Virus record (IMG/VR): IMGVR_UViG_3300010413_000131
Location: 1 to 28,231 of that record
Strand: one strand, 5' to 3'
DNA: 28,231 bases
Origin: a virus
Shown: positions 7,601 to 26,018 of the stretch, piece after piece
How positions within the stretch are numbered: the stretch's first letter is position 1
Layout of the letters: every line of letters begins with the position of its first letter
Notes under the pieces: generated by a model
The model's input: the letters and a program-made list of their open reading frames with translations, nothing else
Database searches by the model: none
What the model was told of the DNA's origin: nothing
Made by a program: the position numbers and the translations under genes

Positions 7601-8604
7601 ATCTTGAAATCTTCCAGAAGGGCGGCGCAGTAGTCGTCACCGATATGCGTCAACCCTAGGATCCACTGAAGCCCCCACTCTCGGGCCGTCAACGTGGCGA
7701 TAGGGCCAAGGCGGGCAAAGCCCCCCACCTGGACGATAGAAAGCCCGTCGCTGCCTGGGCTGTCAATGTCCCCGTCCGGTTCGCTGAACCGGACAATAAA
7801 GATCCGGCTGGAGTCGTTGCCCGCATCGCCCGGATCGTAGGTGTCCCCGATGATCTCAGTGCTCTTGTCCCGCTGCTTGCCCACGTCAACAAAGGGGAGC
7901 CCCTGCCACGAAAACCAGTGGTAGCCCAGAACATCCCTGGTATACAGGGTATACCCGGCAAGCTGGGCCGCGTACTGGATCCCCAGAAAAGAAGTCTTGT
8001 TCATGAGGATCGCGCCGCTGGCCGCGTTGTCCTTCTGGGGTCCCCAGATCCCGGCTGCATAGCAGGCTTCGTCAAGTTTCCTGAAGAACTGCTGCGCGTT
8101 GGCCGCTGAGGCATGAACCTTCAGGCTGTCCGTGGTGCCGCTGGCGCTGATCACCTGGGAACTGGGGAAGTCCCCTGAATCAAAGCGGGCATAGAGCCCG
8201 TTGAATCCATCCGGGGTACTGGAGGTATCCCCGTTGATCACGTTCTGGGCGATCCCCCGCTCCATGGCTACGGTGTGCATGGCGAACTGCTGTTCTACGG
8301 GATCCCGGTACAGGCTTTCGCTGAAGCGTTCAAAGGCTTCATCTTCGCTGAACTTGCCGCCAAAAATGGCTAGGGAGTCTTCGGCGGGCTGGGTCGTGCC
8401 GGTGGACTCGCTGAAAGTCGCGTTGAGCTTGCGGAAGCCGTGTTCTGGCAATTCATCCCAGCGCAAGCCCTCGACTGTGAGGGATCCATGGTTCGTCACC
8501 GGGAACAGTTTTACAATGTCGGACATTCTGACAAGGTTCTTGTACAGCCCCAGCGACATAGGATCTTTGATCAGGTTTACATAGTCGGTCAATGATACTG
8601 GCAT
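7588..8604 (-). CDS. Major capsid protein (HK97-fold type)
   Basis: The 338-residue product matches the usual pattern of HK97-fold phage capsid proteins that lack an N-terminal delta domain: an N-arm (LTDYVNLIKDPMSLGLYKNLV), a strand-rich E-loop-like region (about 40-95), a long helix ending in MERGIAQNVINGD followed by PDGFNGL, a central part with ILMNKTSFLGIQ, and C-terminal strands (DGLSIVQVGGFARLGP). It lies directly after the scaffold gene, with GGAGG before the ATG. Scaffold supplied as a separate gene agrees with the missing delta domain. The product would form the head shell. Family is recognised from motif layout and context rather than a search. Confidence 0.92.
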   Translation of the reverse strand: MPVSLTDYVNLIKDPMSLGLYKNLVRMSDIVKLFPVTNHGSLTVEGLRWDELPEHGFRKLNATFSESTGTTQPAEDSLAIFGGKFSEDEAFERFSESLYRDPVEQQFAMHTVAMERGIAQNVINGDTSSTPDGFNGLYARFDSGDFPSSQVISASGTTDSLKVHASAANAQQFFRKLDEACYAAGIWGPQKDNAASGAILMNKTSFLGIQYAAQLAGYTLYTRDVLGYHWFSWQGLPFVDVGKQRDKSTEIIGDTYDPGDAGNDSSRIFIVRFSEPDGDIDSPGSDGLSIVQVGGFARLGPIATLTAREWGLQWILGLTHIGDDYCAALLEDFKMAAS

Positions 8605-8625: not shown

Positions 8626-9405
8626 TTAACGGCGGATCGGGGTCTTCTCGCGGCCTTCCTTGAGTCCTTCCCTGATTAGCTGGGTGGCTGGCTTGTTGCG
8701 CCAGGCTTCCGGTCCCGCTCCCCCCTGCTCTGATATGGCCGGTATAGAGATCCCAGATCCCGCCAAAAGTTGGTTAACCTGCTGCCTGACCGTCTCCGCG
8801 ATCCCAGCTTGCAGACCTTCGGCCTCCTTCTTGGCCTTCTTGATCATCTGCTGCGCTAGGGTCTGCTGATACTCCCATTGGTAGTTGGGGTCCCGCTCGA
8901 TCTTGGCCTGCCACTCGTCAAGTAGCTGGCCTGTCTCGGGGGCCTCCAGATCATAGCCAAGATCCCCGGCTATGCTCTCCATCCATTGGCGGGTCTGATC
9001 TGCGGCCTGGCTGCCTACGATCTCCTGCTGCTGCATCTGTGCTACAGCCGCAAGGATCTGTGCTGCCTCGTCTCGGTTGCCGCTCTCTAGAAGCTCCATG
9101 CCCCGCTGATAGGCGGCTTGCATTTCCTCTTGGCGCTTCTTGCGCTCGGCGGCTACCTGTGCGTCATACTTGGCCTTGACCTTCTGCAAGTGGCCTTCGT
9201 ACTCCGCTTTGACTTTGGCCTCGATCTCCGCCCGCTGGGAGGCGATCAGTTGTTCAAGTTCCGGCGTTAGCTCTGGACCTTCACCCTGGCCCATCACAGA
9301 AGGGGCCTGCTCACCCTGGGAGGGGGCCTGTTGCGTTCCCGCTGCCCCCGTCCCTGAGCCGCCCGGCTGGCCTGTCTGTAACTCCGTGGCGTTGTCCATA
9401 CTCAT
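8626..9405 (-). CDS. Capsid scaffolding protein
   Basis: The 259-residue product has the classic scaffold make-up: a disordered Gly/Gln/Ser/Pro-rich start (to about residue 45), a long charged coiled coil (about 48-135, many Glu, Lys, Gln, Ala), another helical part (about 150-215), and a basic C-terminus (GLKEGREKTPIRR) that could contact the capsid protein. It is immediately upstream of the capsid gene, 21 bases away. It would guide shell assembly and then leave or be degraded. The ATG at 9405 has AAGGAG nine bases upstream; a second ATG two codons later (9399) is also possible, see the overlapping promoter. No protease motif is visible in it. Confidence 0.87.
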   Translation of the reverse strand: MSMDNATELQTGQPGGSGTGAAGTQQAPSQGEQAPSVMGQGEGPELTPELEQLIASQRAEIEAKVKAEYEGHLQKVKAKYDAQVAAERKKRQEEMQAAYQRGMELLESGNRDEAAQILAAVAQMQQQEIVGSQAADQTRQWMESIAGDLGYDLEAPETGQLLDEWQAKIERDPNYQWEYQQTLAQQMIKKAKKEAEGLQAGIAETVRQQVNQLLAGSGISIPAISEQGGAGPEAWRNKPATQLIREGLKEGREKTPIRR

Positions 9406-9436: not shown

Positions 9437-10126
9437 CTAGGCCAGCGTTGAATAGCCCAACAGGCGGGCTAGCTCGTCGGCCATGGCGGCGATCCGGTTG
9501 CCCCTGCGGCGGATCCCGTCGATCAATTCCTCGATCTCTTCCGGGGGCGGGGGCTCGGGATCGTCCGGGTACAGCGTCCATACCACGTCAAAGTGATCAT
9601 GGTTGGTAGCCGCGATCATGCCCAGCCCCAGAATCAGATCGGATCGTGTTTCGCTGCCGTGCGCCCAGCCTGCATGGGGGCCGATCTGGCCCTGGTCCGG
9701 CCAGTAGTAAGCCCCCGGTCCCATTCCATTTCCGATCAGCCCCTCCGCATTGGTCGGCCCATGGTGGCAACGGTTGGGGACCATCTGAGGAAGTACCCCG
9801 CCCAGGGGTCCGGCGTTGGGATCCTCGGGCGCGTCTGTCCAGTAAAAGGCCATTTCCTGGCCGCTCATGGGCTGGCCCTGGGGGTTGATCACCCCAAAGA
9901 TCATAGCGCTGCTGGCCTCGGGTAGCCGGATCGGAGCCTTGACCTTCTTTCCCTTGGGCGCTCCCTTGCCCTCCGCTGGAGGGTCGGCCCGCTCCAGCAA
10001 GTGGCTGATCTTGTACACTGGGCCGCTGCCCGCTGCCGCTGGCTTTATGATAAAGTTGCCGTACTTGGCCCGCAAATAGGCCAGGTCCCGTTGATTGCCT
10101 GCGTAGTCGATAACGATAATCTCCAT
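9437..10126 (-). CDS. Beta-sandwich-like protein, possible virion surface or glycan-contact protein
   Basis: The 229-residue product has a linker-rich first third (PPAEGKGAPKGKKVK), then a beta-sandwich-like domain from about residue 79 (VINPQGQPMSGQEMAFYW, followed by TNAEGLIGNGMGPGAYYWP and SETRSDLILGLGM with NHDHFDVVWTLYP). The G-x-P-x-x-G turn and T-N-A-x-G motif recall carboxypeptidase-regulatory-like or SpaA-like domains, which are found attached to phage and surface enzymes. The last 45 residues form a helix (PEEIEELIDGIRRR..MADELARLLGY). AGGAGA lies about 11 bases before the ATG, inside the end of the upstream gene. Role unknown; surface decoration is my best guess. Confidence 0.72.
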   Translation of the reverse strand: MEIIVIDYAGNQRDLAYLRAKYGNFIIKPAAAGSGPVYKISHLLERADPPAEGKGAPKGKKVKAPIRLPEASSAMIFGVINPQGQPMSGQEMAFYWTDAPEDPNAGPLGGVLPQMVPNRCHHGPTNAEGLIGNGMGPGAYYWPDQGQIGPHAGWAHGSETRSDLILGLGMIAATNHDHFDVVWTLYPDDPEPPPPEEIEELIDGIRRRGNRIAAMADELARLLGYSTLA

Positions 10127-10358: not shown

Positions 10359-13300
10359 TTACCCTCCCCTGAATGGTCCCCCGTATACATTGGGCGGGGG
10401 TACCCAGCGGGGTTGTTCCGTTCGGCTAGCTGACCGGTTATACGTTCTACCCCCGCCCCCTCTGCCGCCCCGGCGCTGATACTTCTCCCACCACGGCGCA
10501 CCTAATACCGATCTCCAGTCCTCAGCTACTCGCTGGCTGAAGTCTGACGATCCACCGCTAGCCCCTCTATATGTGCCGGTCCCTGTCCCTCTCTTCTCTG
10601 CCTGCTGGTCGGCCATGGGAGGGAAGATCACCCCGGCTAGCTCTTGCTGTAGCTGGGCCTGTGTCCAGCCCTTGAATCCATACACCCGCTGAATCGCTGG
10701 GATTAGCTGGGTGGCCTTGATCTGGGGCACAGCGCCCACGGTCTGATTGTAGGCGTTGGGCTGCCCCTTGATTGCGTGGTAGGCGTCCCATGTTGGGCTG
10801 ATAACCTGCTCTTGGTAGATTTCATGGGCGGCCTGTAGTATGCTATGGTTGCGCCGCGTAAAGGCGTCGTAAGCCTGCGGGCCGCTCATTCCCTGGTAGG
10901 TCCCGGCCTGTATGGGCTCCCCGATTAGGTTGTCTGGGATCGTGGTCTTCCACTGGTCAACGGCTGCATAGTAGTTAGCCCAGTCGATTTCCCCGCTCTG
11001 GGGATCGGTGAACGTGTCTGGGCTGGGCTTGGTAGCCTGGAGATCGTATAGCTGATCCTCAGTTACAGCGTTCCACATTTCAGCCGGGTTCTGGCCATAG
11101 AGGATCGGCGGGATCTCCCCGGTGAACTCGGGTAGTGGGTACTGGGCCTTGGCTGCGTCAAGGGCCTGGTACCGCTGATTATTGATCTCGCTCACCCCCT
11201 GGCCGTCCCACGGGCGCTGTTTTAGGAACTCGTCTATCTGACGGTTGGCCTGGTCGTTGATCTGGTCCTTAACTTCCCTGAGAGCCAGCCAGTTGCGCCG
11301 GGCTCCCGGTGCCATTCCCTGCCCTGCCTCTTCGCCGGGAAGGGCCTGGTACTGGGTAGACCTTGGGTACATGGCTGGTGTCTCGCGCTTGTATTGCTCG
11401 TAAGCGGCGCGGCTGCCGGTCGGACTCTCAGGGTAGGTCAAGCCTCTGGCCTCTTCTGCCATTTCCAGTTGAGCCCGCTCCCCGCTGGGCTCGATCTTCA
11501 TGCTGGGGCCTAGCGCCCAGCCTACAACACCCGCCCGCTGTTCCTGGGCTGCCTGGTCGGCGGCCTGCTGTAACATCTGCTGGGCCGCTGCGATCTCTTC
11601 AGGGGGTATGTTCAGTTCTGCGGCTACCTGCTGGGCAAGCTCGCTTCCTGCTGTCCATGCTGCCCCTGTTTGCTGGGTGTCACGCTGCATAAGTTCCTGA
11701 GCCAATAGCGCCCGCTGGGCAAGCTGTTGATTTGTCGGATCAAGTGCGCTCATGTTGGCCAGGGTGCGGTTGATCCGGTACGTGTCCCAGATTTCCCCGG
11801 CTGGGAGCCCGGCCAACTGCCTTAGCGGTCCCTCGATGTTCAGCCCCCCTGGGGGTGCCCATTCCTGGCCCGCCGTGAACGCCTTGACCGCTCTTGTCTG
11901 GGGGAGCATATAGCCATAGTCCCCGCCATACTCTGGGCCTAGTAGTTGCTGGGCCTTCTCGGTTTCCATGCCGAGGGCCTCCCCTGCCTTGGCTAACCAG
12001 CCCGCCTTATAGGGAAGCTCCAGAAAGTGATAGGGCCTTAGACCTATGTCCTGCGTCATGTTCCAGATCCGCTGTAGCCCCTGGGCGCTCTCGTCTGCAT
12101 CATCCCAGTTGTTCCCAAAGATGTTAGCAAAGGGGAGCATAAAGCGGAGAGGGTCAACGTAGACCGCATCACCCGCCCAGTCTGGGAGCCAGGGGAAGGG
12201 GACCTTAACGCTGGTTGCAAAGCGCTGGCGGCGGCCTGCGTTCTCGTTGGCTTGCTGCATGGCGTCTCTAGTCATTAGGTAGTGATTCAACAGGCCAGGA
12301 TGCAGGGCTAGACGCTGCGCCCAGTTCCAGCCTGAACGTGTGAACCAGTAATGGTATGGCGCGATGTATGAAAGCCAGGTGTCAAAGTTGCGCCGGTTGC
12401 GGTAGTTCAATAGCGCATCATCGGCACGGGTCTTCCCATACTGGAGGGCTGTAGCCCTCAGATCGTACCATGCGGGCTGTACCTCATTCTCTAGCCAATT
12501 AGCCGCATCTGCCTTCACCTGCTGGCTGGCGATCTGTGGCTGCCATTCGTGCCAGTCCTGGGTTATGCCTGCCTGTATGTCGTCAAGTGCTTTGTGGGTG
12601 GCCGTCTCTCCAGCCTGTACCATGCCCCTAAGTGTGGGGGGCTCAGCCTGCCCAGCCTGGGCAAAGCCCCGTTGGTACATGGTCCGGCCCTCGTCGTTGG
12701 CCATAGCTAGCAGGTCGTCTGTGATTAGTTCATCTATGGACCTGAACCAACGGCCAAGGTCAATCTTGTTTTCGATAACCGTCCTGCCTAGCAGGTGGCC
12801 TGTGATCGGGTCAAAGACGTAGGCGTCAAGCTCGGTGCCTGTCTCCTTGACAAGTCGCGTTATCACATTCCGCTGTGATTCGGTTAGTGGGTTACTGGCC
12901 CATATCTGGCCGAACTGTCCCCCCTGGCTGGGGGTCACTGACCATAGCTTGACCGCTCCAGTCTGCCCCGTGAACCATACTTCAGGTTGGGGGATCATTC
13001 CGCGATCTATCCCTTCCACTTCTCGGATCGCTGCGCTGATCTCGTTGTGGGGAACAGTCCTTTGACCGGCGATCCGTTCTTCTCTGCTGCCTCTGCTTCT
13101 GCCGCTGAAGTCCAGCATGGTTCCATCTTTCAGGATGTAACCTGCCTCATTCGGATCGTTTGTCACACCAAAGATCCTGATCGCTGCATCCTCCCAGGGG
13201 TGGCGGCCCTGGGTTCCCCTCTGCCACAAGGTACCTTGCCCCTTGGGTACCCTCTTGGGTCGTAGCTCTTCAGCCGGGGGCGCTGCCCCTGCTGGCCTGG

Positions 13301-16300
13301 CTGCGTACTTCTCAGCGTCGCCAAGCTCGGGGGCCATACCGGGTAACATCCCCTGGGGCGCTGCCTCTGGCGGCACAAACTGGGGGGCCTCTGCCTGCGG
13401 AGCCGTGCCGGACATTAGGGGTAGGTCCTCCCCTCCCTCAAACATCTGCATTTGTCCGGGCTTGCGCTCAGGCTGGCCAAAGACGGGGCGGGCTCCCTCT
13501 GCCTGGTACATCCCCTCTGCTGGTCGCGCAAACTTCCGCAAGTCAAGGGGCGCTTCTCCTACGACCTCCGGGGGCCTCTGGATCTCCCCACCCTCTAGCG
13601 CTGCCTGGGTCTGTGCCTTGCGCTCGATCTGTTCCAGTGCTACCCGTGCGATCTCTTCTGGGGGCGCGGGCGCTTTGTCTCCGCCCATGGCCTCTGAGGC
13701 TAGGCTATAGTACCAATTAGCGTACATGGCCTGCTCGTCCCTGAACGCCTTGGCCGCCTTCTTGGCTACCTTCAGGGCCTCTTGATCTCCCTTCGCCGGG
13801 GCCTTCACCCCCTGAAGCTCCCAGTACAATACCCGCTGTTGCTCGTCGGTTAGTACCTTGTCCCTGGTGATCTCCACCGTGCGCCCGAATTGCTCACGGT
13901 ACTTGGGTTCATCCAGCCGGTGATAGGCTTGCTTCTTCACCTGCTGCCGGATCTCGTCAACCGTGCTGTTGATATAATACTCGTTGCCCCTGTCCTCCAG
14001 GGCCTTGACCAGTGCGTCACCCTCTAGCCCGTACTCTTGGCGGGCTTGCTCCAGGTCAAGCGGGATCGTGGGTGCTATGGCTGCATCCTGCGCTTCATCC
14101 CAGCGGGCGATCCGATCCCAGGCCAGTTCCCGGCCTCGGGGATCCCCAGCCCTTATAATCTCTGGGTCTGATTCAAGTAGCCGGTCAAACACTCCCCGGA
14201 TATTGGGGTCAATCGGCACATCTATATCACTGCCGGTCAAGTTCTTGTAGATCCTGATCAGCCAGTCCTTTAGGTGTGCAAACACGTTCTTGAGTTCCTG
14301 GCTAGGGGCCTGGCCCTCTCTCAAGTAGCGCTCAAAGGCTCGGGCGAACTTCTCTTCTGCCTCTACTGTCCACTCTGCATCATCCAGCCCAGTAGCCCAG
14401 CGGGTGGCGATCCTCAGTTCCTCACCCTCCAGATCCCGCCTGAAGATGTGGCCAAGCTCATGTACTACTGTAGATATGTCCCCACTCTCAAAGGCGGAGA
14501 TCACGGCCCGCCCATCATCCAGAAAGTCAATCGCTCCCTTGGGCCGCTGGAGTAGCGGGCGGCCTCCCTCGATAGACAACGTGAACGCCTCTGTTACGTC
14601 TCGGGCGATCCAGTCTGCATCTGGGGTAGGACCTGGGCGGATCTCTGTCACCCGGACGATCTGATCTGCTGGGACAGGGCCGGTTGAATATACGTCGCCC
14701 GTCCTGTACTCTGCCTTCGCCCAGTCTCCCCGTTTGACCTCTAGCACATAGCCGGGGGCCGCTGCGGTTGGCTGATACTGGGGAGGGGCAAAGGTCCCAG
14801 CGTAGGCATAGCCGGTCCCTGGTGCCTCTCCAAAGAAGGTTGCATCTGGATCCTGAAAGCTGAAGTTGTATTCTCCCCTGCTTTTGATCTGGCCGGTTTC
14901 TATGATGTAATCAAGCTCGCCTTTGCTGATCCCCCGGTATAGATAGAAGTCGTTGGCCTCCGCTGCCCCCCTGGTGATAATCCCCGGCGCTCTCTCGGGG
15001 AAGTCATCTGGGAGGGGGATCGCTGAAAACGTGGCCCTTAGATCCCGCTCCGCTGCCCTGGTGCTTGTCCATGAACTCACCCGATTGCCTAGCCGGTCAT
15101 AGGTATTGTAGCTCACGGGCACTTGCTCCGGCGCTAAGCGTTCGGCTAGCTGTCGGGCTTGGGCCAGGTCGGGGACCGGGCCAAAGTCTTGACCATAGCC
15201 GATCCATGGCGCATGAACATACCACTGACCTTCATGCTCAAGCAGTAGCAAGCTGGCGTCATTGGTGATTTTCAGGGCCTCTGTCCCTGCCCCAGTCTTG
15301 CCCCAGGTCGGGGAGGGTGCTTCCGCCTTCACCTTGTAGCCCAGGGAGAAGCGCCATTCTCCGGGGTTGGGTGTCTGCTGCAAGCGGCCCATCTGGAATA
15401 GGGACTGTGGCCCGCCCAGTAGATCGGCCTTCATCTGCGGGGTGATCGGTATTACCCAGTGGTAGGGCGGATTTTCCGGGCCATAGATATAGTCCATGGC
15501 CTCTTGCTCGGTTAGGAAGGTTCGTATCTGATCAAAGTCGGTGCGCCCGTCTTCGTCCCGGCCTACACCGATCACATCCCATGCGCCCCTTGAGCTTTCT
15601 TCAAGTATGAACTCTTCATAATCTGGGAAGTCCTGGTAGGCGTTTGATTGTAGCCTCCAGTTGGGTTCTTCCCTTGGCTCCACCCCCCAGCGCTTCAGTT
15701 CCTTCTTGGCAACACTGGGAAGAATTTCATCATAGTAGGTCTGATAGCCGCGCCCGCCTACGTAGTCACCGACATAGGTACGTTTGACACTGTACTCCTG
15801 GCGCAAGGCGTCTACGGCTTCATCCATAGAGGCATAGGATCTAACGTCTGTTGGTAAGCCTTTCTCGTCAATGTAGGCCCTGACTGTCCCGTCCTCTAGC
15901 TGATAGATCCTTATGTCCTGGTTGGGATTTGTCATCCCAGCGGTGATCTTCTGGCCCTCTAGATAGCCGTCGTCTGTCCTCTCCCAGTCGTACTTGTTGA
16001 ACTCTCGGAACGTCTCAGATCCTAGATCGTTCTCAAGTAGATCGTCTGCTATGTCTTTGCCCAGAACATCATACAGATCCTTGGGGCTCAGCTTCTCTTC
16101 CCTGAAGACCTCCCCCATTCCCTCCCTGAAGCCTCTCAGGGTCCGGGTTCTGGGGTCGTAGCTCAGATCGTCTACAAGGTGCCGCTGCCTCCACCGTACC
16201 CCGTGAACGTGGCCGGTTGTCCAGCCCAGGGCCTCCATGTCCTGTTCTGCTGCTTCCCTCAGCATACGCTTAAAGGCTAGGGCTGTCCAGTCTCGGGTAT

Positions 16301-19300
16301 CGGCATAGGGGGCCTTGGGTAGCTGGGCCTGGGTTGCGCTTCTGGCCCGCTGTAGTTCCTGCCAGCCGTTACGTACTGACCACGGCTGCCCCTCTACCTG
16401 GATCTGTACCCTGGTCTTGCCGTCCCAGTTCTGGGGCGGAGCAAACTCAGGATTAGGCCACTCGGTAACACGCCAATTCCCCGCCGCATCGGATCGGTAG
16501 TTGCGCCATATATCCTGGCCGATTAGGTCTATGGCCTCTTGGGCCGTGACAGGCTTTGACTCCCAGATGATAAAGGGGTTCTTGTTCCAGTCCTTACCAT
16601 ACAGCCGGATCGTATGCGTCTCAGCCTGCATCTTTTGGCCGTCCGGTACAATCTCGATGAATGACGTATCTTGGATCGCCGTTGTGGCTAGACCTTCACG
16701 GCTGCCTAGTTCGTCCATCGTCCTAACGATCCGCTGTGCTGGAGGGGTGGCCCCCTCCATGGGATCATGCAACGGTGAAAAGGTCCCGTACTTCTGGAAC
16801 AGTTCCCCGATCCTGGCCTTCTCCGCGTCAATGTCCTCTAGTTCCCAAAGATGCAAGTACCCTTGCTTTCGTGCGTCCTGGTGCCAGTCGCTTTGTAGTT
16901 CATCTATAAAGAGCATCCTCCGCCCGTCCTGGGTTGCCCTCTCGTCAAAGCGACTGTGTACGATCACATTCTCTTCATAGCCCCAGTGCGCCATTTTCTG
17001 GTACTTCTTTGGGTACTTGGCGGCCTGGCGTCTGACCTCTGACGTTAGCCCCTTCTCTGCGGCGTCTTGCCAAGCTCCTTCTAGTGCCGCCCTGCGGTTG
17101 CCAAAGGCTGCGCCCTCCATGTCTGGGCGCTCCCAGTACCATTCGTCAAGATCGCTGTCAAAGGTGATCTTGTAACCGGGCGGGGGTGTGGGTTCTCCTT
17201 CCCACTCGATCAGCCACTCGGTATAGTTCTTGCCGCCTGGAAGGGTGAACGTCTCCCAGCGGGTGGATCCTGCGTCCTGCGCCTCGTCTACCATCAGCCG
17301 GGCTTCTGTGAGATCGGCGTAGGCGTCTAACAGTTGCCGGGTTAGCTCGGGCTCCTGTTCAGCAAAGCGGATCGCGTCTCGATATGTCCCGTACTGTTGC
17401 CCTTCTTGATCTATCTGGAGGATCCGCTCTTCGTGCCACTCTATGGCCCCCAGGATCCCTTCAGTTGAACCATAGTCGCTTGCTCTCTCCCCTACCATGG
17501 CCCTCACCCGATCATACTCGGCTAGGGCTTGGGAATGGCGGATCTCCAGTGTGGGATCCGCCTTGCCCCCGAAAGTTACATCTTTGACCTTGACCTGAAA
17601 AGATTTCAGGTACTCCATTACCTCTTGCTTGCTGATTGTCTCTTCCGGCCAACCATCCAGCCAGCGGAGGATCCCGCTGTACTCTATTTCATCCCCCTTG
17701 ACTGGGGGACTGGGCTTGTACAGTGCCCCTTTCTTGCTGCGCTTCATGGGAGGATCGAGCATATCACGCAACTGATCCACCCTCACCCGCTGGGGTAACT
17801 TCTGCTCTAGCACAGTCTCAAGTTTGTTGTACCATACCGGGGTAGGACCTGCCCCCTTCTGGAATAGGCGCGGCTGATAGGTCGGGGCCTTGTAGGTGTG
17901 TACCATTTCCTGGGCCTTCTCTAGTCGCTCGATCAAGCCCTGCTTCCTGCCCCACGGGTCGCCTACTCTCAGGGGATCGTAGGGTGGCAATTCCTCCCGG
18001 CCATGGATCCCCCTGGCTGCCAGGTCTAGGATCTCGCCGTCAAGCTCTTCTATCTGGTCGGTTAGCTGGCCGATCATGATCTTGTAGCGCTCGATCATGG
18101 TTGAATGGTTCTCAGCTACAAGCCGGGCGATCTCGTCTTTGGTGATACGATCACCCTTCTTCAGCACCTTGACGATCAAGGTATCTGGGATCTCGGTCGT
18201 CTGATAACCGGCCAGCCCTGACCATGACAGGGGAGCACCTTTGATCGGCGTTGTCCCTATATACGCTGTTGTCCCTGGCTCCAAGAACTTACCAAAGCGC
18301 TCCCAGTCGGCTTCCCTGTAACTCTTGGCCGTGACAACTTCCCCGTTAATGAGGACAACACGATCCCCCTTCTGGATCTGTAGTCCATCTTTCAGGTATA
18401 CCGGCGTCTCGATGAATGGGCGCTCTAGGCTGGCCGGTGGCTTGCGGAGATCCCGGATCGCCTCTGCTGCTGCGGCCACTAGCTCAGGGTCCCGGTCCTT
18501 GTAGGTGTTCTTGAACGCGCCTTTAACTAGATGCTCGTCGGCTATCGACTTGGCCCAAGTGATCGTATCCTGTATCAATTCATCTGGCACAATCCAAAGG
18601 CGTTCGATCTGCTTGGCGTCTACGATTAGCTCAGTGTCTACAAAGGTTAGGGAATAGGCGATCCCCTGGGTGCCGGTCCCTGCCTCTGCGGCTGCCCTGG
18701 GGCTGGTGTACAGGATCGCTGACTCGGGTACCTCCATCGCAAAGGTGATCGGATAGCTGGCCTTCCACTCCTGGTAAAAGCCCGCAACACTGGGGTAGTT
18801 GCTCACGTATACGGGCGACTGTCCCCGCCTGGTGGCCCGATCTGCTAACTGCCTGAGCTTCTGCTTAATGTGGGCCACACTGGAAGTAAAGCCCCCGCCC
18901 AGGTCCCCGGCCTCAGCACTGGCCAAGATCGGGATCACCTGCTTTGGGCTGCGCTCTGTCCGGTACAGGATCACGTTGCCCGGCTTGGCCTCCGACTGGA
19001 TCCCCGGCCTGGCTGATTCTAGAATCATCGTGGCCTTGCTCTGTAGGTAGTTCCTGGCCGCGTCTTCAGCCTGCACCCGCTCCATAATGTCAAGCTCGCC
19101 CAGGTCCCCAAGATCAAGCTCAAGTGTGCGCTGATCCCGGCCTGCCTCTAGGATCTGCCAGGTGGCCTCTTGGATCTTGGCGCGGTCAAGGTCCTGGCCT
19201 CCCTGGGCTGCCCAGCGCTGCAAGTTGTGATCTATGATCTGGCCTAGCTCGGGATCCCCCCTCCCTACCTGCATTAACCTTGACTCGCCCTCGATTCCCC

Positions 19301-22300
19301 GTCGCATCCCAGCTAGCCTGGTCTTGTACCATTCGGCGGCTGGCCTGCCGGTCTGCTCTGCCCAGGTCTTGGCCCGCGCATCGGTGATCGCCATAATGGC
19401 GCTACGATCCTTGCCGCTCAGTCCAAAGAAGGTCTGGAGATCCTGCCGCCATTCCTCCCGGCTGTACTCAAGCGGGGCATTGGCCGCGATCTCCGCCTTG
19501 ACTACCTCTGCGGTCGTGGGCATACGCCTTCCGGTATCTGTCCAGCGCTCCACGGCTGCCACTTCCTCAGCCGTCCACTGGTCCCGGTTCTTCAGGGCTG
19601 CCGTCTTCACAAGGGCCTGATCGCCTGGCTGAATCTTCTTGGGTGTGGGCGCTGTCCTGGCCTCTGCTCTCTCGAACCTGGCCAAGAGTGCATCACGCTC
19701 CGCAACCATCCAGCGGCGTTCTGCCCGGTCGTGGTACTTGGCCCAAAGATCGTTACGCTCCGCCCAGTATTTTTCCCAGACATACTGGGCCGCTCGCTTG
19801 CCTGCGTTCCCTCCACCGTGGCGGGCATAGGCGGCCTGTGCATCCTTAAAGGCTTTGTCCCTGGCCTCTGCCACTAGCCCGGCTGTACGCTGGCCGTATA
19901 TCTCCACGTCACGGCTGGCGCTGTCAAGCAGGTCTAGCACGTCTCCATGATAGCCGGGCTCGATATTGTAGCTAGCCCTGAGCGCTCTCACCTGGGCGCG
20001 GTCAACCCTGCCCCTGTGGTGTGCAAGGAATAATTCAAACTTCTCATTATCCTGAGCGTCAAGCACTCGCCCAGGTACCCAGTTCTCGGGGGCGGGCGGG
20101 ATCTCACTGGCCCGCCTCAGCCGTTCTTCTGCTAGCTGGCGGCGCGACTTGCCCAGGACCTCCCCTATGTCCTCCCCTGCACCCAGCCGGGCAAGCTGAT
20201 CCCTAGCCTCTACAAAGCGATCAATCCTCCGCCTGGAGTACAGATCCCAGGACTGGGCTACCTCTTCCGCGTACTGCCGCCATAGTCCCCCGCTGCCTGC
20301 TGGGTTGGCCTGGTACGCCTTGACAACACGGCGGCGCAAGTCGTCAAGGGCTACCCGGCTGGCGTCTCTCAGTTCGTCTGCTGACAGGTTGGCCGCGATC
20401 AGGACCTCTAGGCTGTCGGCGTTGCTGGCCTCCACCCCCTCACGGGCTGCGGTCCTGGCCTCCGCTAGCTCTGCTTCTCGCTCTGGTACCTTGGCCTTCG
20501 TCTCTTCTACTATACGGGCGATCTCGGGATCCTCTGGGTGATCGGCGGCTATCCGCTCTAGCTCTGCGATCACAGGCTCGGCTACCTCTGCCTCTTCAAC
20601 GTCGGTTGCAACCTCACGGGTGGCCGGTAGGTCCTCTAGATCCTTGAGCCTGCGGGCCGTGTCGTCGGCTACCATGTTATGCAGATCCTCAAAGGCTCGG
20701 GCTATCTCTTCCTGTGTGGCGTTGGGAGGAAGGCTTGTCAACCGTTCCCTGGTAAGGCGGGCGATCTCTGGGCTCATGGCGTCAAGGGTCACGGCGTCAA
20801 GGTACCGGGTCGGCTCCAACAGATCCCCTGGTCCTTTGGGGTTCAGGAAGCGGGCGACTGTGGCCCGCTTTTCATCCATGTTCAGGCCACGGGCTACAGC
20901 ATGAAGCAGATCATCTGCCCTTGGGCCAAAGAAGGCCATAACTGAAGCGGGCGGGGCCGGGGTCAAGCGCACAGCGTTGGCGTCTAACATCTGTTGGGTG
21001 GCCTTCACTAGCGCCCGCTTATACCTGGGCTCTTCACCTATGGCAAAGCGCCCTAGCTCCGCCTCTCTTACAATCTTCTGGCCTAGCTTGCTGATTGCGC
21101 CCAGGGGTCCGGGTAGCCTGCTGGTGTAGACCTTCTCACCGACCTGCCCGGCCTCTTCTGCAATCCCGGTTAGTTCGGCTAGCTGACCGGCTCCGCCTGT
21201 GGTGACTCGCCGTGTCGTCACGCTGCCCAGTGCGTCAAGGTAGTTGTCAATGTCTTCTACCCGGTCAAAGTTCAGGATCCCATCAGCCGCCGCCGTGACA
21301 AGATCGGTCGCCGTGTTTCGCATGGCGTAGCCTGGGCTATAGAGTGCTGTAAGATAGAACTCACTCATTAGCCCTTTCCATGCGTTGGCAAATTGCAAAT
21401 ACTTGTTAGGCTCCTTGTGGCCGTATGCCTTGCGGAGCCTGTCAAGGGCCAGGTCCTCAAGCTCCATGACAAAGCGGGCGGGGTTGAACATCCCTTCTGG
21501 CTTCTGGGCCTCGGGGAGTTTGCCGATCCCATCTGCTATATCTGTGAGGATTAGCCGCGTCTTGCTGCCTGCCTCTGATACCATGCTATCGCCAAAGATC
21601 GGGCGCAACCTCTCGGGGTCCTCGATCATATCGGCTACAAAGGCTAGGGCTTCATCCCCGCTTCTGGTTTCCGACAACGGCCCGCCTAGCACGATCCACA
21701 TCTGGCCGGTGTCCCGCTCTGCCTTGGCCGTGGGTGTCAAGTCAAAGGGGTTGGCTATAGCGTCGCGGATCTTGGCCATGACTCCGCCGTCTGCCTTGCG
21801 GCCCGCCTTAGTCACTGTCTCGCCCAGGATTTCTACAGCCTGATCGGCCTCCACCCCTAGCACGTTGGCCATGGCCAGGACGGCCCGCCTGGCCTCGGGT
21901 GTGGCGTCAACTGCCTCGGCTACAAGTTGCTGGCTGGCCTTGAGGGCCTTTCCCTGCTTAAACGCCTTCCACACCCCCAGCGCATCGATCAAGTTCAGGG
22001 GGTCGGCTATCACCTGGCCCACAAGCTCGGCGGCTATGCTCTCACGCTGAAGCGCTGCCTCTTCTGCCGTGACCTCTCCCCGCTGGATCCGCTCTACGTC
22101 GGTCTTCAGCGGGCTATAGAGGGCTTCCCCCTCTTCCCGGCCTAGTTCCTGCTCAAGTGCCCGGCCCATATATGAGTAGGTGCGGAGTGTGAGGGGTGCC
22201 CACTCTTCCACGCTCAGGCCCTCAGCCTCGGGCATGGCCTCAATTAGCCCAGCCCCTAGCGCTTGCTCTCCCCATAGTGCGGGCTCACCTAGAAGCGTGG

Positions 22301-22868
22301 TGGCGTAGGCTCCGAACTGCTCAAGCCCTCGTAGTAACGGGCTCTTGTAGGTAGCTCGCTCCCAAGCCTGGCCGACCTGGCCAAGCGCTGCCAGGGGCAC
22401 GGCTGCCGCTGGGGCTACCTTCTGGCCAAAGCTACCCAGCCCCCCGATCAGATTCTCCCTGTCCTCTAGGGTCTGTTGCCAACTGGGCATGGGGGGCGGC
22501 ATAAACCCGGCTCGCTCTTCTGGCCGCTCTACTGCCTGCTGTACCCGCTGCTTGCTCCCCTGCCAAAGCCAGTCTAGAAAGTTAGCAGGGGCGGGCTGGA
22601 TCCTGGTGGCCGGGTTGTAGTCCTGGCTGGTGCCGGTCGGGGGCACGTACTGGGGCGCTCCCTGGGCCGTTTCCTGGCCGGGAATGGCGGAAATTGGCCC
22701 GCCCTGAATCGTTCCCGGCTCAGGGGGCTTCTGGGACAGCGCTGTCATATAAGGTTGGGAACGTCCGGCTAGCTGAACGTCTGCCGCCTGCTGCTGGGTC
22801 TGCTGAGTGTCGAGCCAGCCGCGCCATTTGTTTACGTCTTGTAGCCATTGATCCCGTTCTGTGGGCAT
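10359..22868 (-). CDS. Giant phage polyvalent protein (4169 residues) with zincin and ART-like regions
   Basis: Uninterrupted frame starting three bases after the upstream stop, with GGGAGAGGGA as ribosome binding site. Visible parts: a disordered Pro/Gln start; a helical region with SPGYAMRNTATDLV (about 510) as in other large phage proteins; long charged helices (about 740-1040); a possible ART-like region with LYRTERS (Arg1303); a large conserved module (about 1673-2490) with LPGGKNYTEWL, FIDELQSDWH (to 1996), TALAFKRMLREAAEQ; a second possible ART-like region with LYRGIS (Arg2645); HELGH (2803-2807) with a later Glu (2839 or 2846) as in zinc peptidases; a module with AGYILKDGTMLDFSG (from about 3225); a Trp/Tyr-rich region with PYHYWFTRSGWNWAQ (about 3500); a Gln-rich helical part; and an Arg/Gly tail. 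This mix is known from polyvalent proteins of phages. Injection into the host is inferred. The ART calls are tentative. Confidence 0.9.
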   Translation of the reverse strand: MPTERDQWLQDVNKWRGWLDTQQTQQQAADVQLAGRSQPYMTALSQKPPEPGTIQGGPISAIPGQETAQGAPQYVPPTGTSQDYNPATRIQPAPANFLDWLWQGSKQRVQQAVERPEERAGFMPPPMPSWQQTLEDRENLIGGLGSFGQKVAPAAAVPLAALGQVGQAWERATYKSPLLRGLEQFGAYATTLLGEPALWGEQALGAGLIEAMPEAEGLSVEEWAPLTLRTYSYMGRALEQELGREEGEALYSPLKTDVERIQRGEVTAEEAALQRESIAAELVGQVIADPLNLIDALGVWKAFKQGKALKASQQLVAEAVDATPEARRAVLAMANVLGVEADQAVEILGETVTKAGRKADGGVMAKIRDAIANPFDLTPTAKAERDTGQMWIVLGGPLSETRSGDEALAFVADMIEDPERLRPIFGDSMVSEAGSKTRLILTDIADGIGKLPEAQKPEGMFNPARFVMELEDLALDRLRKAYGHKEPNKYLQFANAWKGLMSEFYLTALYSPGYAMRNTATDLVTAAADGILNFDRVEDIDNYLDALGSVTTRRVTTGGAGQLAELTGIAEEAGQVGEKVYTSRLPGPLGAISKLGQKIVREAELGRFAIGEEPRYKRALVKATQQMLDANAVRLTPAPPASVMAFFGPRADDLLHAVARGLNMDEKRATVARFLNPKGPGDLLEPTRYLDAVTLDAMSPEIARLTRERLTSLPPNATQEEIARAFEDLHNMVADDTARRLKDLEDLPATREVATDVEEAEVAEPVIAELERIAADHPEDPEIARIVEETKAKVPEREAELAEARTAAREGVEASNADSLEVLIAANLSADELRDASRVALDDLRRRVVKAYQANPAGSGGLWRQYAEEVAQSWDLYSRRRIDRFVEARDQLARLGAGEDIGEVLGKSRRQLAEERLRRASEIPPAPENWVPGRVLDAQDNEKFELFLAHHRGRVDRAQVRALRASYNIEPGYHGDVLDLLDSASRDVEIYGQRTAGLVAEARDKAFKDAQAAYARHGGGNAGKRAAQYVWEKYWAERNDLWAKYHDRAERRWMVAERDALLARFERAEARTAPTPKKIQPGDQALVKTAALKNRDQWTAEEVAAVERWTDTGRRMPTTAEVVKAEIAANAPLEYSREEWRQDLQTFFGLSGKDRSAIMAITDARAKTWAEQTGRPAAEWYKTRLAGMRRGIEGESRLMQVGRGDPELGQIIDHNLQRWAAQGGQDLDRAKIQEATWQILEAGRDQRTLELDLGDLGELDIMERVQAEDAARNYLQSKATMILESARPGIQSEAKPGNVILYRTERSPKQVIPILASAEAGDLGGGFTSSVAHIKQKLRQLADRATRRGQSPVYVSNYPSVAGFYQEWKASYPITFAMEVPESAILYTSPRAAAEAGTGTQGIAYSLTFVDTELIVDAKQIERLWIVPDELIQDTITWAKSIADEHLVKGAFKNTYKDRDPELVAAAAEAIRDLRKPPASLERPFIETPVYLKDGLQIQKGDRVVLINGEVVTAKSYREADWERFGKFLEPGTTAYIGTTPIKGAPLSWSGLAGYQTTEIPDTLIVKVLKKGDRITKDEIARLVAENHSTMIERYKIMIGQLTDQIEELDGEILDLAARGIHGREELPPYDPLRVGDPWGRKQGLIERLEKAQEMVHTYKAPTYQPRLFQKGAGPTPVWYNKLETVLEQKLPQRVRVDQLRDMLDPPMKRSKKGALYKPSPPVKGDEIEYSGILRWLDGWPEETISKQEVMEYLKSFQVKVKDVTFGGKADPTLEIRHSQALAEYDRVRAMVGERASDYGSTEGILGAIEWHEERILQIDQEGQQYGTYRDAIRFAEQEPELTRQLLDAYADLTEARLMVDEAQDAGSTRWETFTLPGGKNYTEWLIEWEGEPTPPPGYKITFDSDLDEWYWERPDMEGAAFGNRRAALEGAWQDAAEKGLTSEVRRQAAKYPKKYQKMAHWGYEENVIVHSRFDERATQDGRRMLFIDELQSDWHQDARKQGYLHLWELEDIDAEKARIGELFQKYGTFSPLHDPMEGATPPAQRIVRTMDELGSREGLATTAIQDTSFIEIVPDGQKMQAETHTIRLYGKDWNKNPFIIWESKPVTAQEAIDLIGQDIWRNYRSDAAGNWRVTEWPNPEFAPPQNWDGKTRVQIQVEGQPWSVRNGWQELQRARSATQAQLPKAPYADTRDWTALAFKRMLREAAEQDMEALGWTTGHVHGVRWRQRHLVDDLSYDPRTRTLRGFREGMGEVFREEKLSPKDLYDVLGKDIADDLLENDLGSETFREFNKYDWERTDDGYLEGQKITAGMTNPNQDIRIYQLEDGTVRAYIDEKGLPTDVRSYASMDEAVDALRQEYSVKRTYVGDYVGGRGYQTYYDEILPSVAKKELKRWGVEPREEPNWRLQSNAYQDFPDYEEFILEESSRGAWDVIGVGRDEDGRTDFDQIRTFLTEQEAMDYIYGPENPPYHWVIPITPQMKADLLGGPQSLFQMGRLQQTPNPGEWRFSLGYKVKAEAPSPTWGKTGAGTEALKITNDASLLLLEHEGQWYVHAPWIGYGQDFGPVPDLAQARQLAERLAPEQVPVSYNTYDRLGNRVSSWTSTRAAERDLRATFSAIPLPDDFPERAPGIITRGAAEANDFYLYRGISKGELDYIIETGQIKSRGEYNFSFQDPDATFFGEAPGTGYAYAGTFAPPQYQPTAAAPGYVLEVKRGDWAKAEYRTGDVYSTGPVPADQIVRVTEIRPGPTPDADWIARDVTEAFTLSIEGGRPLLQRPKGAIDFLDDGRAVISAFESGDISTVVHELGHIFRRDLEGEELRIATRWATGLDDAEWTVEAEEKFARAFERYLREGQAPSQELKNVFAHLKDWLIRIYKNLTGSDIDVPIDPNIRGVFDRLLESDPEIIRAGDPRGRELAWDRIARWDEAQDAAIAPTIPLDLEQARQEYGLEGDALVKALEDRGNEYYINSTVDEIRQQVKKQAYHRLDEPKYREQFGRTVEITRDKVLTDEQQRVLYWELQGVKAPAKGDQEALKVAKKAAKAFRDEQAMYANWYYSLASEAMGGDKAPAPPEEIARVALEQIERKAQTQAALEGGEIQRPPEVVGEAPLDLRKFARPAEGMYQAEGARPVFGQPERKPGQMQMFEGGEDLPLMSGTAPQAEAPQFVPPEAAPQGMLPGMAPELGDAEKYAARPAGAAPPAEELRPKRVPKGQGTLWQRGTQGRHPWEDAAIRIFGVTNDPNEAGYILKDGTMLDFSGRSRGSREERIAGQRTVPHNEISAAIREVEGIDRGMIPQPEVWFTGQTGAVKLWSVTPSQGGQFGQIWASNPLTESQRNVITRLVKETGTELDAYVFDPITGHLLGRTVIENKIDLGRWFRSIDELITDDLLAMANDEGRTMYQRGFAQAGQAEPPTLRGMVQAGETATHKALDDIQAGITQDWHEWQPQIASQQVKADAANWLENEVQPAWYDLRATALQYGKTRADDALLNYRNRRNFDTWLSYIAPYHYWFTRSGWNWAQRLALHPGLLNHYLMTRDAMQQANENAGRRQRFATSVKVPFPWLPDWAGDAVYVDPLRFMLPFANIFGNNWDDADESAQGLQRIWNMTQDIGLRPYHFLELPYKAGWLAKAGEALGMETEKAQQLLGPEYGGDYGYMLPQTRAVKAFTAGQEWAPPGGLNIEGPLRQLAGLPAGEIWDTYRINRTLANMSALDPTNQQLAQRALLAQELMQRDTQQTGAAWTAGSELAQQVAAELNIPPEEIAAAQQMLQQAADQAAQEQRAGVVGWALGPSMKIEPSGERAQLEMAEEARGLTYPESPTGSRAAYEQYKRETPAMYPRSTQYQALPGEEAGQGMAPGARRNWLALREVKDQINDQANRQIDEFLKQRPWDGQGVSEINNQRYQALDAAKAQYPLPEFTGEIPPILYGQNPAEMWNAVTEDQLYDLQATKPSPDTFTDPQSGEIDWANYYAAVDQWKTTIPDNLIGEPIQAGTYQGMSGPQAYDAFTRRNHSILQAAHEIYQEQVISPTWDAYHAIKGQPNAYNQTVGAVPQIKATQLIPAIQRVYGFKGWTQAQLQQELAGVIFPPMADQQAEKRGTGTGTYRGASGGSSDFSQRVAEDWRSVLGAPWWEKYQRRGGRGGGGRTYNRSASRTEQPRWVPPPNVYGGPFRGG
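10362..10370 (-). promoter_or_regulatory. Ribosome binding site that sets the start of the basic protein
   Basis: AGGGGAGGG on the minus strand lies within the last codons of the giant gene and is seven bases before the ATG at 10354. It supports the 74-residue form over the longer in-frame reading from 10501. Confidence 0.7.
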
Positions 22869-22871
22869 GGG

Positions 22872-23831
22872 CTAGTATCCCTCTCCCAGTCTCCAGATTG
22901 TCATAGGTGGCACGTAGTTGGGCGGGCGCTTCTCTTCCTCTGCACCCCCGCCGCTGGATCGGCGGCGCTTCATCATCCCCCTAAGTGCTTTCCACTGTTC
23001 AGGGCTGAAGGTCGGGCGGGGCCTGCCGGTCCTGGTGATATACCAGTGGTCTTCCCATTCGGTCTGGGTTGGGCTGCGTCCCTGTTCCTGGGCAAATCTA
23101 ACCGACCACTCGCGATCCCCCAGGGCCTCCGCTAGCCCCTCCCCCTGGGCCTTGTACCAGTCATTGGCGCTTGCTCCGCCGTGTTCCTTGCTGAACTCGC
23201 TTTGCCAGCGGTCGAACCAATTACCTCCCCCGCCCTGGGCCTGGCCCTGCTGTCCCTGGCCTCCCTGGGCCTGCTGGGTGCCCTGGTCCGGGTAGCCTGG
23301 GGGGAGGGCTCCGCCGCCCACACTCTGGCCATAGGTGCCCAGCCCAGCCGCCCGCCGCTGCTCTGCAACCTGCATTAGATACTGTCGTCTCGCGTCAAGG
23401 GCCTGGCCTGGCTGCCCTGCCTGCCGCTCTTGTACGAACTGGGGAAGGCTGGAGGGCTGACCGGCTGTGCCATAGCCCCCAGGTCCCCAGCCCCCAGCGG
23501 TCACGGCTGCCCCCTGGAACTGATAGGGGTTGTACCCGGCGTAAGCCTGGGTAGCCTGGCTGGGTGCCTGTACCTGATAGGTCGGGGCCTGTGCTCCCCA
23601 GCCCTGAACGTTGGGGCCTGGCTGCATCTGCTCTGCAATCCTGCCCCCGGTCTGGGCTAGCTGGGTGCCTGGGACATAGTATCCCTGTGGCTGGCTGTAG
23701 TTCGGGTACTGAACCATGGGAAGGTAGACCGGCTGGGCTGGCTGGTACTGGTACTGGCCGTATGCTTGCTGCGGGGCTGCCTGCCCCCATGGTGTGGCCG
23801 CTCCGGGCGGCTGAAACAGTGGGTTAGTCAT
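22872..23831 (-). CDS. Gln/Pro/Gly/Tyr-rich low-complexity protein, function unknown
   Basis: Residues 1 to about 203 of 319 are low-complexity: rich in Gln, Pro, Gly, Tyr and Ala with repeats of the PQQAYGQYQYQP and YPNYSQPQGYY kind, like prion-type or condensate-forming segments. From about 204 a folded part follows (NWFDRWQSEFSKEHGG, DHWYITRTGRPRPTFSPEQW), then KRRR, a Gly run and PNYVPP near the end. The last third could be a small helical domain. GGGGAGGGG precedes the ATG by seven bases; the upstream stop is three bases away. The giant gene begins three bases after its TAG. The shared YVPP motif suggests a link to the giant protein. No enzyme motif is visible. Confidence 0.75.
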   Translation of the reverse strand: MTNPLFQPPGAATPWGQAAPQQAYGQYQYQPAQPVYLPMVQYPNYSQPQGYYVPGTQLAQTGGRIAEQMQPGPNVQGWGAQAPTYQVQAPSQATQAYAGYNPYQFQGAAVTAGGWGPGGYGTAGQPSSLPQFVQERQAGQPGQALDARRQYLMQVAEQRRAAGLGTYGQSVGGGALPPGYPDQGTQQAQGGQGQQGQAQGGGGNWFDRWQSEFSKEHGGASANDWYKAQGEGLAEALGDREWSVRFAQEQGRSPTQTEWEDHWYITRTGRPRPTFSPEQWKALRGMMKRRRSSGGGAEEEKRPPNYVPPMTIWRLGEGY

Positions 23832-24176: not shown

Positions 24177-26018
24177 TTAGAATCCTCCTGGGTATGGCAT
24201 AGCGCCGGGGATCTGTTGCTCCATCTGTCCCGGCTGGGGGTACCCCTGTCCTGGGTACCCTGGCGGCTGCATCATTCCGGGCGGCACTGGCATAGCTGCG
24301 CCGGGTGGTATCGGCTGGGGGCCATAGCCTGGCGGGTACTGCTGGGGTGGCATTGGCCCATAACCTGGGGGCGGCTGCATCATTCCGGGCTGCATGGGTG
24401 GCGGCTGCATCGGTTGGGGCTGGGCCGGTGGCTCTTCGCCTGCCTGTGCGAGCTTCCTTAGTTCCTTCTCGAACTCTATAGCCCGCTTCATTTCCTCTTC
24501 AATTCTGGCCTGTTCCTTCTCCGCCGCCTGTACAAGTCCGTACTTCTCAACGGTCGTTCTCCATGACAGCATGGGTCGCCCGTCTGTCCCTGGTTCTCTG
24601 GCCCTGCCTGCCAGGACCATGTTAGCTTGCTCGTCACTGGGTAGCAGGTCCCCGATCTGAACCTCTACATGGTACAGCCCATCGAGATCACGGGGCTTGA
24701 ACTCAAGCCAGTTTGCTACCCGATAACTGCGGGTGTCCCCGTCCATGTCGTCTATCCGCATGAACCTGATCACGTTGCTTGGAGTCAGATCGGCTAGCCA
24801 CTCAGCGCACATTCTCAGGGCCACTTCCCCCAGCGATTCTACACAAGCCTGGAGGGCCGCTATGATCCCATTCAATCGGATCTGCCCGCTCTGGTTCAGA
24901 AGGTTGATCGCATAGCCCGCCATGATGCGCCCAGGGTCAAGGCCATACATCGAACTCGGGAAGGTTCCCCGCTCAAAGTGAGCTTCATACTTGGCCCGCA
25001 TCTTGTCAAGCTCCATAGGCTGGCGGCCTGCTCGTAGTGGGTCAACGCTCTCCCCTGGGTATAGGTGGTTGACAGCGCCGGGGCGGGTGTCTAGTTCAAA
25101 GTCTTCTTGCTCGGTGATAACAGTCCATGCGTCGCCTGTGTACTGGTGAACGGCTGTAGCCTCTGCGGAGTCTGCCAGGTCGAGACGGTCGATCACGTTC
25201 AGCACTCCATGGAGTAGCCCCCTTGCCCGTTCCTCTGGTACTGCGCTGCCGGTCTGTCTTGCGTACTCGAAAGCATAGGGGATCTGTCCGTAGGTGTGGG
25301 GCCAGGGACCTTGGCCCGCCTTGAGGCTGACCAGTTCCCCCGCCGCCCAGTAGCAGTATTGTGAGTCGTCCCAGTATTCCACCCACGTTACTTCTTCAGC
25401 CGGTCGCTTGCCGGGTAATGCCTCCTTGTCGCCCAGGGTCCGGCGTATGTCGGCTACCCGCCGCTGGCTCTGCTCTACAACGTAGCTCAGCCCGTCGATC
25501 CCGATCTCGGGATAGACGTAGCGGGGATCTCGAACCTGGATAGCTAGGGGGATCCTGCGGTCTGCCTCCCAGGTGGCCCGGCCTTCCTCGTCTACTGTGA
25601 TCTTGGTATCTGTACCGGGGGAGGGGAGCACCCGCATACACACAGCGCCGCGCATCCCGGCAAGCCAAGCGGCCTTTGACAGAAATCTCTGATGCTGTGT
25701 GCGCTGGCTCTGTGTCCAGATCGCCTGTAAGAACTGCTCTGCATCATCGGCGGCCTGTTGGCCTTTCTTCTTCTCGCTGGGCGCTGCGACAGTGAATGTC
25801 ATATCGGCGCTAGTTACTAGGTCCTGCACAAGATCAATCGCCCCAGTCCCCCAGGGCATACGCACGATCTCGATCCCTTCAGCCTGCGCCGTCTCTTTGT
25901 CGTCCTTGTCGTACTCTAGAAAGTAATACTGGTTGATCTCGTCAAGGTCGGCGTCTCGCTCAGCATAGTAGTCGATTGTTTGTTTAGCTAACTCCCATAG
26001 ATCGCTAGCCGCGTCCAT
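24177..26018 (-). CDS. Portal protein with a Pro/Gln/Met/Gly-rich tail
   Basis: The 613-residue product is a phage portal by content and position: it follows the terminase large subunit and has portal-type segments, including an N-terminal helical part with DEINQYYFLEY, a middle with DPRYVYPEIG, a clip-like core with YCYWAAGELVS and YGQIPYAFEYARQTG, a helical stretch with AINLLNQSGQIRLNGII, and a late VEVQIGDLLPSDEQ. The portal ring would sit at one head vertex, bind terminase and admit DNA. Residues about 530-613 form a low-complexity tail of Pro, Gln, Met, Gly and Tyr, which ordinary portals lack. The ATG at 26018 overlaps the terminase gene by 31 bases; the next in-frame Met is about 53 codons on and would cut conserved sequence. 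Confidence 0.92.
   Translation of the reverse strand: MDAASDLWELAKQTIDYYAERDADLDEINQYYFLEYDKDDKETAQAEGIEIVRMPWGTGAIDLVQDLVTSADMTFTVAAPSEKKKGQQAADDAEQFLQAIWTQSQRTQHQRFLSKAAWLAGMRGAVCMRVLPSPGTDTKITVDEEGRATWEADRRIPLAIQVRDPRYVYPEIGIDGLSYVVEQSQRRVADIRRTLGDKEALPGKRPAEEVTWVEYWDDSQYCYWAAGELVSLKAGQGPWPHTYGQIPYAFEYARQTGSAVPEERARGLLHGVLNVIDRLDLADSAEATAVHQYTGDAWTVITEQEDFELDTRPGAVNHLYPGESVDPLRAGRQPMELDKMRAKYEAHFERGTFPSSMYGLDPGRIMAGYAINLLNQSGQIRLNGIIAALQACVESLGEVALRMCAEWLADLTPSNVIRFMRIDDMDGDTRSYRVANWLEFKPRDLDGLYHVEVQIGDLLPSDEQANMVLAGRAREPGTDGRPMLSWRTTVEKYGLVQAAEKEQARIEEEMKRAIEFEKELRKLAQAGEEPPAQPQPMQPPPMQPGMMQPPPGYGPMPPQQYPPGYGPQPIPPGAAMPVPPGMMQPPGYPGQGYPQPGQMEQQIPGAMPYPGGF

Follow-up and report, generated by a model that had tools for sequence, protein, structure and literature searches.

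A giant cysteine-free phage protein, probably of polyvalent type, with a conserved chassis and variable cargo

Introduction

The DNA analysed here, a virus record from IMG/VR that is 28,231 bases long and is referred to as the window hereafter, carries one gene of 4169 codons in the region of the portal and capsid genes. The question raised by this locus is what kind of protein is encoded there and where it acts. The window record is probably a genome fragment, and neither genome end is therefore covered. Polyvalent proteins of phages are already known, and their injection into the host has been proposed since 2017 on the basis of their domains and gene neighbourhoods (Iyer et al. 2017, PMC5512222). 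Cysteine-free ejected giants are also known: the N4-like virion RNA polymerases (vRNAPs) lack cysteine, a property that may be needed for tail passage (PMC3915230). A sequence-only reading of the window had given the gene the make-up of a polyvalent protein, and we examined the gene, its neighbours and its relatives.

The giant gene and its neighbourhood

The giant gene is one uninterrupted ATG-to-stop frame on the minus strand (10359–22868), encoding 4169 aa (about 467 kDa; protein P0001). The remaining five frames across these positions contain 128–241 stops each, with no open stretch of more than 189 codons; because they are full of stops, a chance origin of the giant frame is excluded. The single continuous frame of the sequence-only reading, which gave no strand, was thus confirmed, and the minus strand can be added. 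The size is not unique, as related open frames of about 4,700, 4,922 and 5,218 aa exist.

All neighbouring genes discussed here are also on the minus strand. In the order of that strand, they are the terminase small subunit (TerS, 27396–27914; Pfam Terminase_2, 1.4e-18), the terminase large subunit (TerL, 25988–27409; phrog_2, 1.6e-30), the portal protein (24177–26018; SPP1_portal, 8.6e-07, and phrog_64), a 112-aa gene, a 319-aa gene, the giant gene, a 229-aa gene, a scaffold-like gene, the major capsid protein (MCP, 7588–8604; GP7, 4.6e-10, and phrog_212, 3.6e-26) and putative tail genes, for which no confident family match was obtained. The giant is therefore surrounded by the late, virion-type neighbourhood of a portal–terminase phage, being separated from the portal by two small genes and from the MCP by two genes. 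Its location between the portal and capsid genes, which had been claimed before, is borne out by the portal and MCP matches. The 229-aa gene (9437–10126) gave no family match and is absent from the nearest relative of the locus, L193. The scaffold-like gene (8626–9405) also gave no family match and was assigned by position and composition; it is 31% identical to the L193 gene at the same place, and the MCP is 66–71% identical to that of L193.

The 319-aa gene (22872–23831), directly upstream of the giant, is Q/P/G/Y-rich and cysteine-free. It terminates in ...RPPNYVPPMTIW, and the giant (window 10359–10480) terminates in ...EQPRWVPPPNVYGG. The proline–tyrosine tail common to the two may be a shared assembly or portal signal.

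A conserved chassis surrounds a variable insert

In sequence searches of Pfam, NCBIfam and PDB, P0001 gave no match, either whole or piecewise; its sole library match was phrog_9880 (aa 2778–2909, 1.6e-26). In tblastn against phages, three separate zones, namely a zincin region, a region with the motif ELQSDWH, and aa 3447–3708, were matched, each by different partners, and the first 1786 aa were not matched. A direct search of IMG/VR with P0001 as a single query returned nothing, and the relatives surfaced only through an alignment of the segment named C1 below; the IMG/VR search was seeded by the alignment of the phage ctptF532 and yielded 18 loci, then 57.

Three segments, aa 464–739, 3457–3723 and 3740–4100, recur in the same order, and mostly at the same locus, in about 60 distinct IMG/VR proteins of roughly 1,600–4,900 aa, and this chassis is also present in six Chloroflexota MAG contigs. 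The segments are, respectively, referred to as N1 (20652–21479; 17 proteins by iterated HMM and many more in a later search), C1 (11700–12500; 57 IMG/VR and 6 genome loci) and C2 (10569–11651). Iterated HMMs revealed one more segment, N2 (about aa 1098–1207; 19248–19577), which often lies beside the zincin domain in relatives. The long members share N1, C1 and C2 (from 3740 on) in order, and N2 and the zincin co-occur in many. Among the family loci whose flanks are present, TerL and the portal lie upstream of the giant and the MCP lies downstream, which makes the position between the portal and capsid genes characteristic of the family. In two of the loci (L003, 1744–3750; L004, 2573–4579), TerL occupies a frame of 1131 codons, and its homologous part contains about 340 additional residues, which are possibly an intein.

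The family ranges from 1628 aa (L018, in which no cargo was recognised) to the open frames of about 4700 and 4922 aa. The median length from C1 to the stop is 648 aa, and the middle between N1 and C1 extends over 73 to 2726 aa. The comparison with the nearest relative, L193, which is located on an Anaerolineales MAG contig, is instructive. L193 is 44% identical to the giant over aa 3392–4165 and 35% over aa 922–1109 (19542–20105), the last backbone part before the insert. Since these two matching stretches are only about 36 residues apart in L193, it lacks the whole of aa 1110–3391, a variable cargo block of 2282 aa (12696–19541, by the tblastn junction). The L193 locus is syntenic with the window in the MCP, the scaffold-like gene and three tail genes. 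Regions 1–480, 740–1290 and 3420–4169, which the sequence-only reading had thought might be new, proved to be largely conserved backbone, the most conserved part of the family; the polyvalent modules are its variable insert, and the ends are its conserved part.

No Pfam, NCBIfam or PHROGs model covers the chassis. The C-terminal chassis (C1 and C2 together) is all-helical in the structure model (mean pLDDT 69), and fold searches with it against solved structures and viral predicted structures gave no match; a PDB sequence search with P0001 also gave no match, and these searches thus revealed no homology to a known short-tail ejection protein. The idea that the C-terminal part is LPD38 was dropped when the PF18857 profile gave no match, although this is a weak test in which the control genomes were silent too. 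N1 and C1 were also compared as possible repeats of one another, and this was rejected.

Modules in the cargo

Several domain types are combined with the chassis in the one frame of P0001, namely the zincin, ELQSDWH and GYIL modules, whose activities are predicted ones. The zincin metallopeptidase domain (aa 2774–2905; 14154–14549), which corresponds to the phrog_9880 match, is found in 53 unique relatives. It contains HELGH at aa 2803–2807 and, about 35 residues on, a conserved Glu at about 2838 (in EEKFARAFE, which starts at 2838). At least 90% of the relatives retain the first His, the Glu and the later Glu, and 47 of the 53 retain HExxH. Large proteins of Bordetella phage BPP-1 (Bbp10) and of Xanthomonas, Pseudomonas and cyanobacterial phages were matched by this region in tblastn. 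A relative of it is also carried by BK063671.1 (H11), a virus for which a Methanomicrobiales (archaeal) host is listed.

The ELQSDWH module (aa 1660–2410; 15639–17891) belongs to an unnamed family with the invariant positions GGxNYxE, HxR, ExQSD, W and GGxG...YD; ELQSDW itself lies at aa 1990–1995. This is a very common unnamed module: more than 540 IMG/VR relatives were found, and most of the 80 retained sit in very large proteins. Its tblastn partners are Dolichospermum phage Dfl-JY45 and a spring-water myovirus. The AlphaFold model is good in the core only (mean pLDDT 61, best blocks 85–96), and the fold search of the model against PDB gave no significant match. A GNAT fold, considered from the order of strands and helices and from weak Foldseek matches (ranks 10–42, E of 0.66 and above), gained no support from profile comparison (hhalign probability 0.2%). 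The last module, GYIL...DFSG (aa 3225–3400; 12669–13196), has 10 IMG/VR relatives and occurs in L020. Thus, the HELGH segment and the ELQSDWH-type module of the sequence-only reading both proved to be conserved modules.

The same was not the case for its two ART-like regions, which we place at aa 1290–1500 (18369–19001, where the structure model is poor) and aa 2640–2770 (14559–14951). The ART-PolyVal profile (PF18760) had no match anywhere in the window, and when 15 ART-PolyVal domains of related phages were combined into a profile, its hhalign probability against either region was below 1%, a result that concerns the ART-PolyVal clade only. Curated polyvalent domains, with no Pfam or NCBIfam match inside P0001, were seen in its chassis relatives: ART-PolyVal (3.9e-31) in the middle region of L033 and L019, and LPD5 (1.6e-16) with LPD1 (1.3e-10) in the middle of L034. 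On the contig of L099 (G052), a 5218-codon frame has several ART-PolyVal domain matches. The assignment of P0001 to the phage polyvalent type is thus supported by the zincin, the late head genes and the curated domains of the relatives, and the ART-like part of the original argument found no support.

The modules vary among family members. In L048, L075, L082, L142, L160 and L163, ELQSDWH is placed between N1/N2 and the zincin, and on a C1–C2 tree of 57 proteins, the zincin state changes at least 10 times and the ELQSDWH state at least 9 times. These counts are rough, because the tree was a quick one with many weakly placed inner branches and some of the proteins are truncated.

Host and lifestyle

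When 84,980 genomes were scanned with the C1 alignment, six loci were found; each lies in a MAG whose title names a Chloroflexi, Anaerolineales or Anaerolineaceae bacterium. Anaerolineae is a class with many anaerobes. In 3 of the 6 genomes, a contig of 55–248 kb carries both the giant and a tyrosine integrase, the latter about 11–24 kb away from the stretch of the giant that was matched. Together, the integrase contigs and the Chloroflexota MAGs make temperate Chloroflexota phages the likely setting, and the relatives suggest a Chloroflexota host for the window virus as well. This host call relies on MAGs, in which binning errors are possible, though all six agree. A podovirus morphology is suggested by the label of one relative (ctptF532).

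Cysteine is excluded from chassis and cargo

P0001 contains no cysteine in its 4169 aa, while the frequency in the other window genes, 33 in 4981, would give an expectation of 27.6. The triplets TGT and TGC number 0, 86 and 98 in frames 1, 2 and 3 of the gene, respectively. The family as a whole has 35 cysteines in 165,064 residues, as compared with 1063 in 122,592 for the other ORFs of at least 200 aa at the same loci (0.021% versus 0.87%, a 41-fold depletion). Cysteine-free proteins account for 53 of the 65 giants, some of which are truncated, and for 2 of the 46 other ORFs of 500 aa or more. Among the 20 residues, cysteine is the only strong outlier, with a log2 ratio of −5.36, followed by histidine at −0.78. 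The cargo was found to be as depleted as the chassis (15 in 49,493 residues for the insert or middle; 13 in 68,901 for the ends). The main exceptions are L161 and L186, related chassis giants with 9 and 10 cysteines, each with two zincin matches.

Proteins carrying ELQSDWH, mostly on other chassis, have 39 cysteines in 144,007 residues and 9 in 24,793, against 0.79%. The ELQSDWH giants on other chassis (L036–L115) are also almost cysteine-free, and the signature is therefore wider than the chassis family.

Proteins ejected by short-tailed phages show the same property: N4 gp50–52 have 0 cysteines in 4294 residues, T7 gp14–16 have 1 in 2261 and P22 gp7/16/20 have 0 in 1309 (together 1 in 7,864). 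The near-absence of cysteine in the P0001 family matches this pattern, which is an empirical correlate rather than a formal criterion. Injected proteins of long-tailed phages may contain cysteines (T4 Alt, 3 in 682; P1 DarB, 9 in 2255), and tape measures are free of them (P1 Sit, 0 in 1140; T4 gp29, 0 in 590). Because tape measures share it, the signature should be read as "passes through the tail or tail tube", not as "reaches the cytoplasm". The full exclusion gives indirect support to head loading and injection of the giant.

In the literature searched, of which the coverage was incomplete, no statement was found on a cysteine-free status of polyvalent proteins as a class, and the word cysteine is absent from the text of PMC5512222. 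According to the libraries and papers examined, the family-wide cysteine exclusion that includes the cargo is new, and so is the Chloroflexota phage chassis family with its defined cargo region.

Discussion

With good confidence, we regard the giant as a head-packaged, polyvalent-type ejection protein of a Chloroflexota phage, probably short-tailed and probably temperate, that is threaded unfolded into the host. In this mechanism, the conserved frame (N1, N2, C1 and C2, with C1–C2 predicted to be helical) would be made near the portal and packed in the head, with the enzyme modules carried in its central part. On infection, the chain would leave through the tail, unfolded or loosely folded, ahead of or with the DNA, and would refold in the host. 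The absence of cysteine from frame and cargo would keep the chain free of disulfides and easily threaded. Inside the cell, the zincin, ELQSDWH and GYIL modules might target proteins of the host or of the phage, and the zincin may also release separate products by cleaving the chain. The open frame, the chassis, the insertion, the gene neighbourhood, the host group of the relatives and the cysteine exclusion are observations. By analogy with N4, T7 and P22, packaging near the portal, unfolded passage and refolding are plausible steps; the activities of the zincin and ELQSDWH, self-cleavage and an anti-defence role are suggested by domain type only. Arrival of the chain in the cytoplasm is the least certain point, because tape measures share the cysteine signature.

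The alternative that survives best is that the giant is a polyprotein cut during assembly, of which only a part, chassis or cargo, is packaged, as has been proposed for P1 DdrB. It is compatible with the preferred reading except for full-length passage. The conserved HExxH and downstream Glu of the zincin fit such a cut, and self-processing proposed for DdrB provides a precedent (PMC5512222); against it, no zincin was detected in 15 of the 43 relatives with both ends, the N4 vRNAP is packaged uncut (PMC5512222), and cysteine is as scarce in the insert as in the ends, which would be expected from threading of both. We consider partial packaging rather unlikely.

Clearly less probable is a structural role, inside the head or like that of a tape measure, for a protein that does not enter the cytoplasm at all, with enzyme-like modules serving assembly (the zincin, for example, maturing head proteins). 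The proximity to the portal and scaffold-like genes, the predicted helical C-terminal chassis and the cysteine-free tape measures would suit this role, but the cargo varies greatly and some relatives lack it, unlike an assembly factor, the ART-PolyVal, LPD1 and LPD5 cargo fits effectors, and the range of 1,600–4,900 aa follows no tail-length logic. That the absence of cysteine is a by-product of composition or of an anoxic or reducing habitat, as the Chloroflexota MAG hosts, several of them Anaerolineae, might suggest, is very improbable, since cysteine is at a normal level in the neighbours on the same contigs, no other residue is a strong outlier, and the ELQSDWH carriers on other chassis are alike.

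If the preferred reading of an ejected giant is extended, cysteine exclusion might be a physical passport for tail-threaded proteins: the giant polyvalent proteins of many tailed phages would be threaded, chassis and cargo alike, and the Chloroflexota chassis would be a general vehicle whose slots take any cysteine-free module. We put this forward tentatively, at slightly less than even chances. If true, ejected effectors would be predictable from sequence alone. The cysteine test provides independent, quantitative evidence, obtained from sequence alone, on the injection of polyvalent proteins; it makes this injection directly testable and predicts which phage proteins are threaded. It further implies that chassis and cargo travel together and that delivery should suffer when disulfides are introduced. 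The finding thus bears on protein delivery by phages. It also delimits a family of chassis among the phages of Chloroflexota, and the common ELQSDWH module merits a structure.

Comparison with known systems

The giant resembles the phage polyvalent proteins (PMC5512222) in its very large size, late-gene context, zincin and shuffled cargo domains, with ART-PolyVal, LPD1 and LPD5 being shared by its chassis relatives. It differs from them in the chassis family with a defined insertion region, the strict cysteine exclusion and the Chloroflexota hosts. The N4-like virion RNA polymerase gp50 (Schitoviridae) is likewise giant (3500 aa) and cysteine-free, is packaged in the head and ejected, and has a zincin reported by Iyer et al.; however, no RNA polymerase module was recognised in the giant, and the gp50 gene lies at the far end of the late cluster, while that of the giant lies between the portal and the MCP. 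Bbp10 of Bordetella phage BPP-1 (1 cysteine in 2052 aa) and its Xanthomonas and Pseudomonas relatives are large, belong to a structural gene cassette and are about 30–35% identical in the zincin region; the match is confined to that region, the chassis is not shared, and the BPP-1 gene follows the tail genes. The 2156-aa protein of ctptF532 (MW202608, Manatee Spring "Podoviridae") has no zincin, ELQSDWH or other recognised cargo. It carries the N1, C1 and C2 chassis, contains 1 cysteine, accounts for the tblastn zone at aa 3447–3708, and sits between the portal and the MCP, as the giant does.
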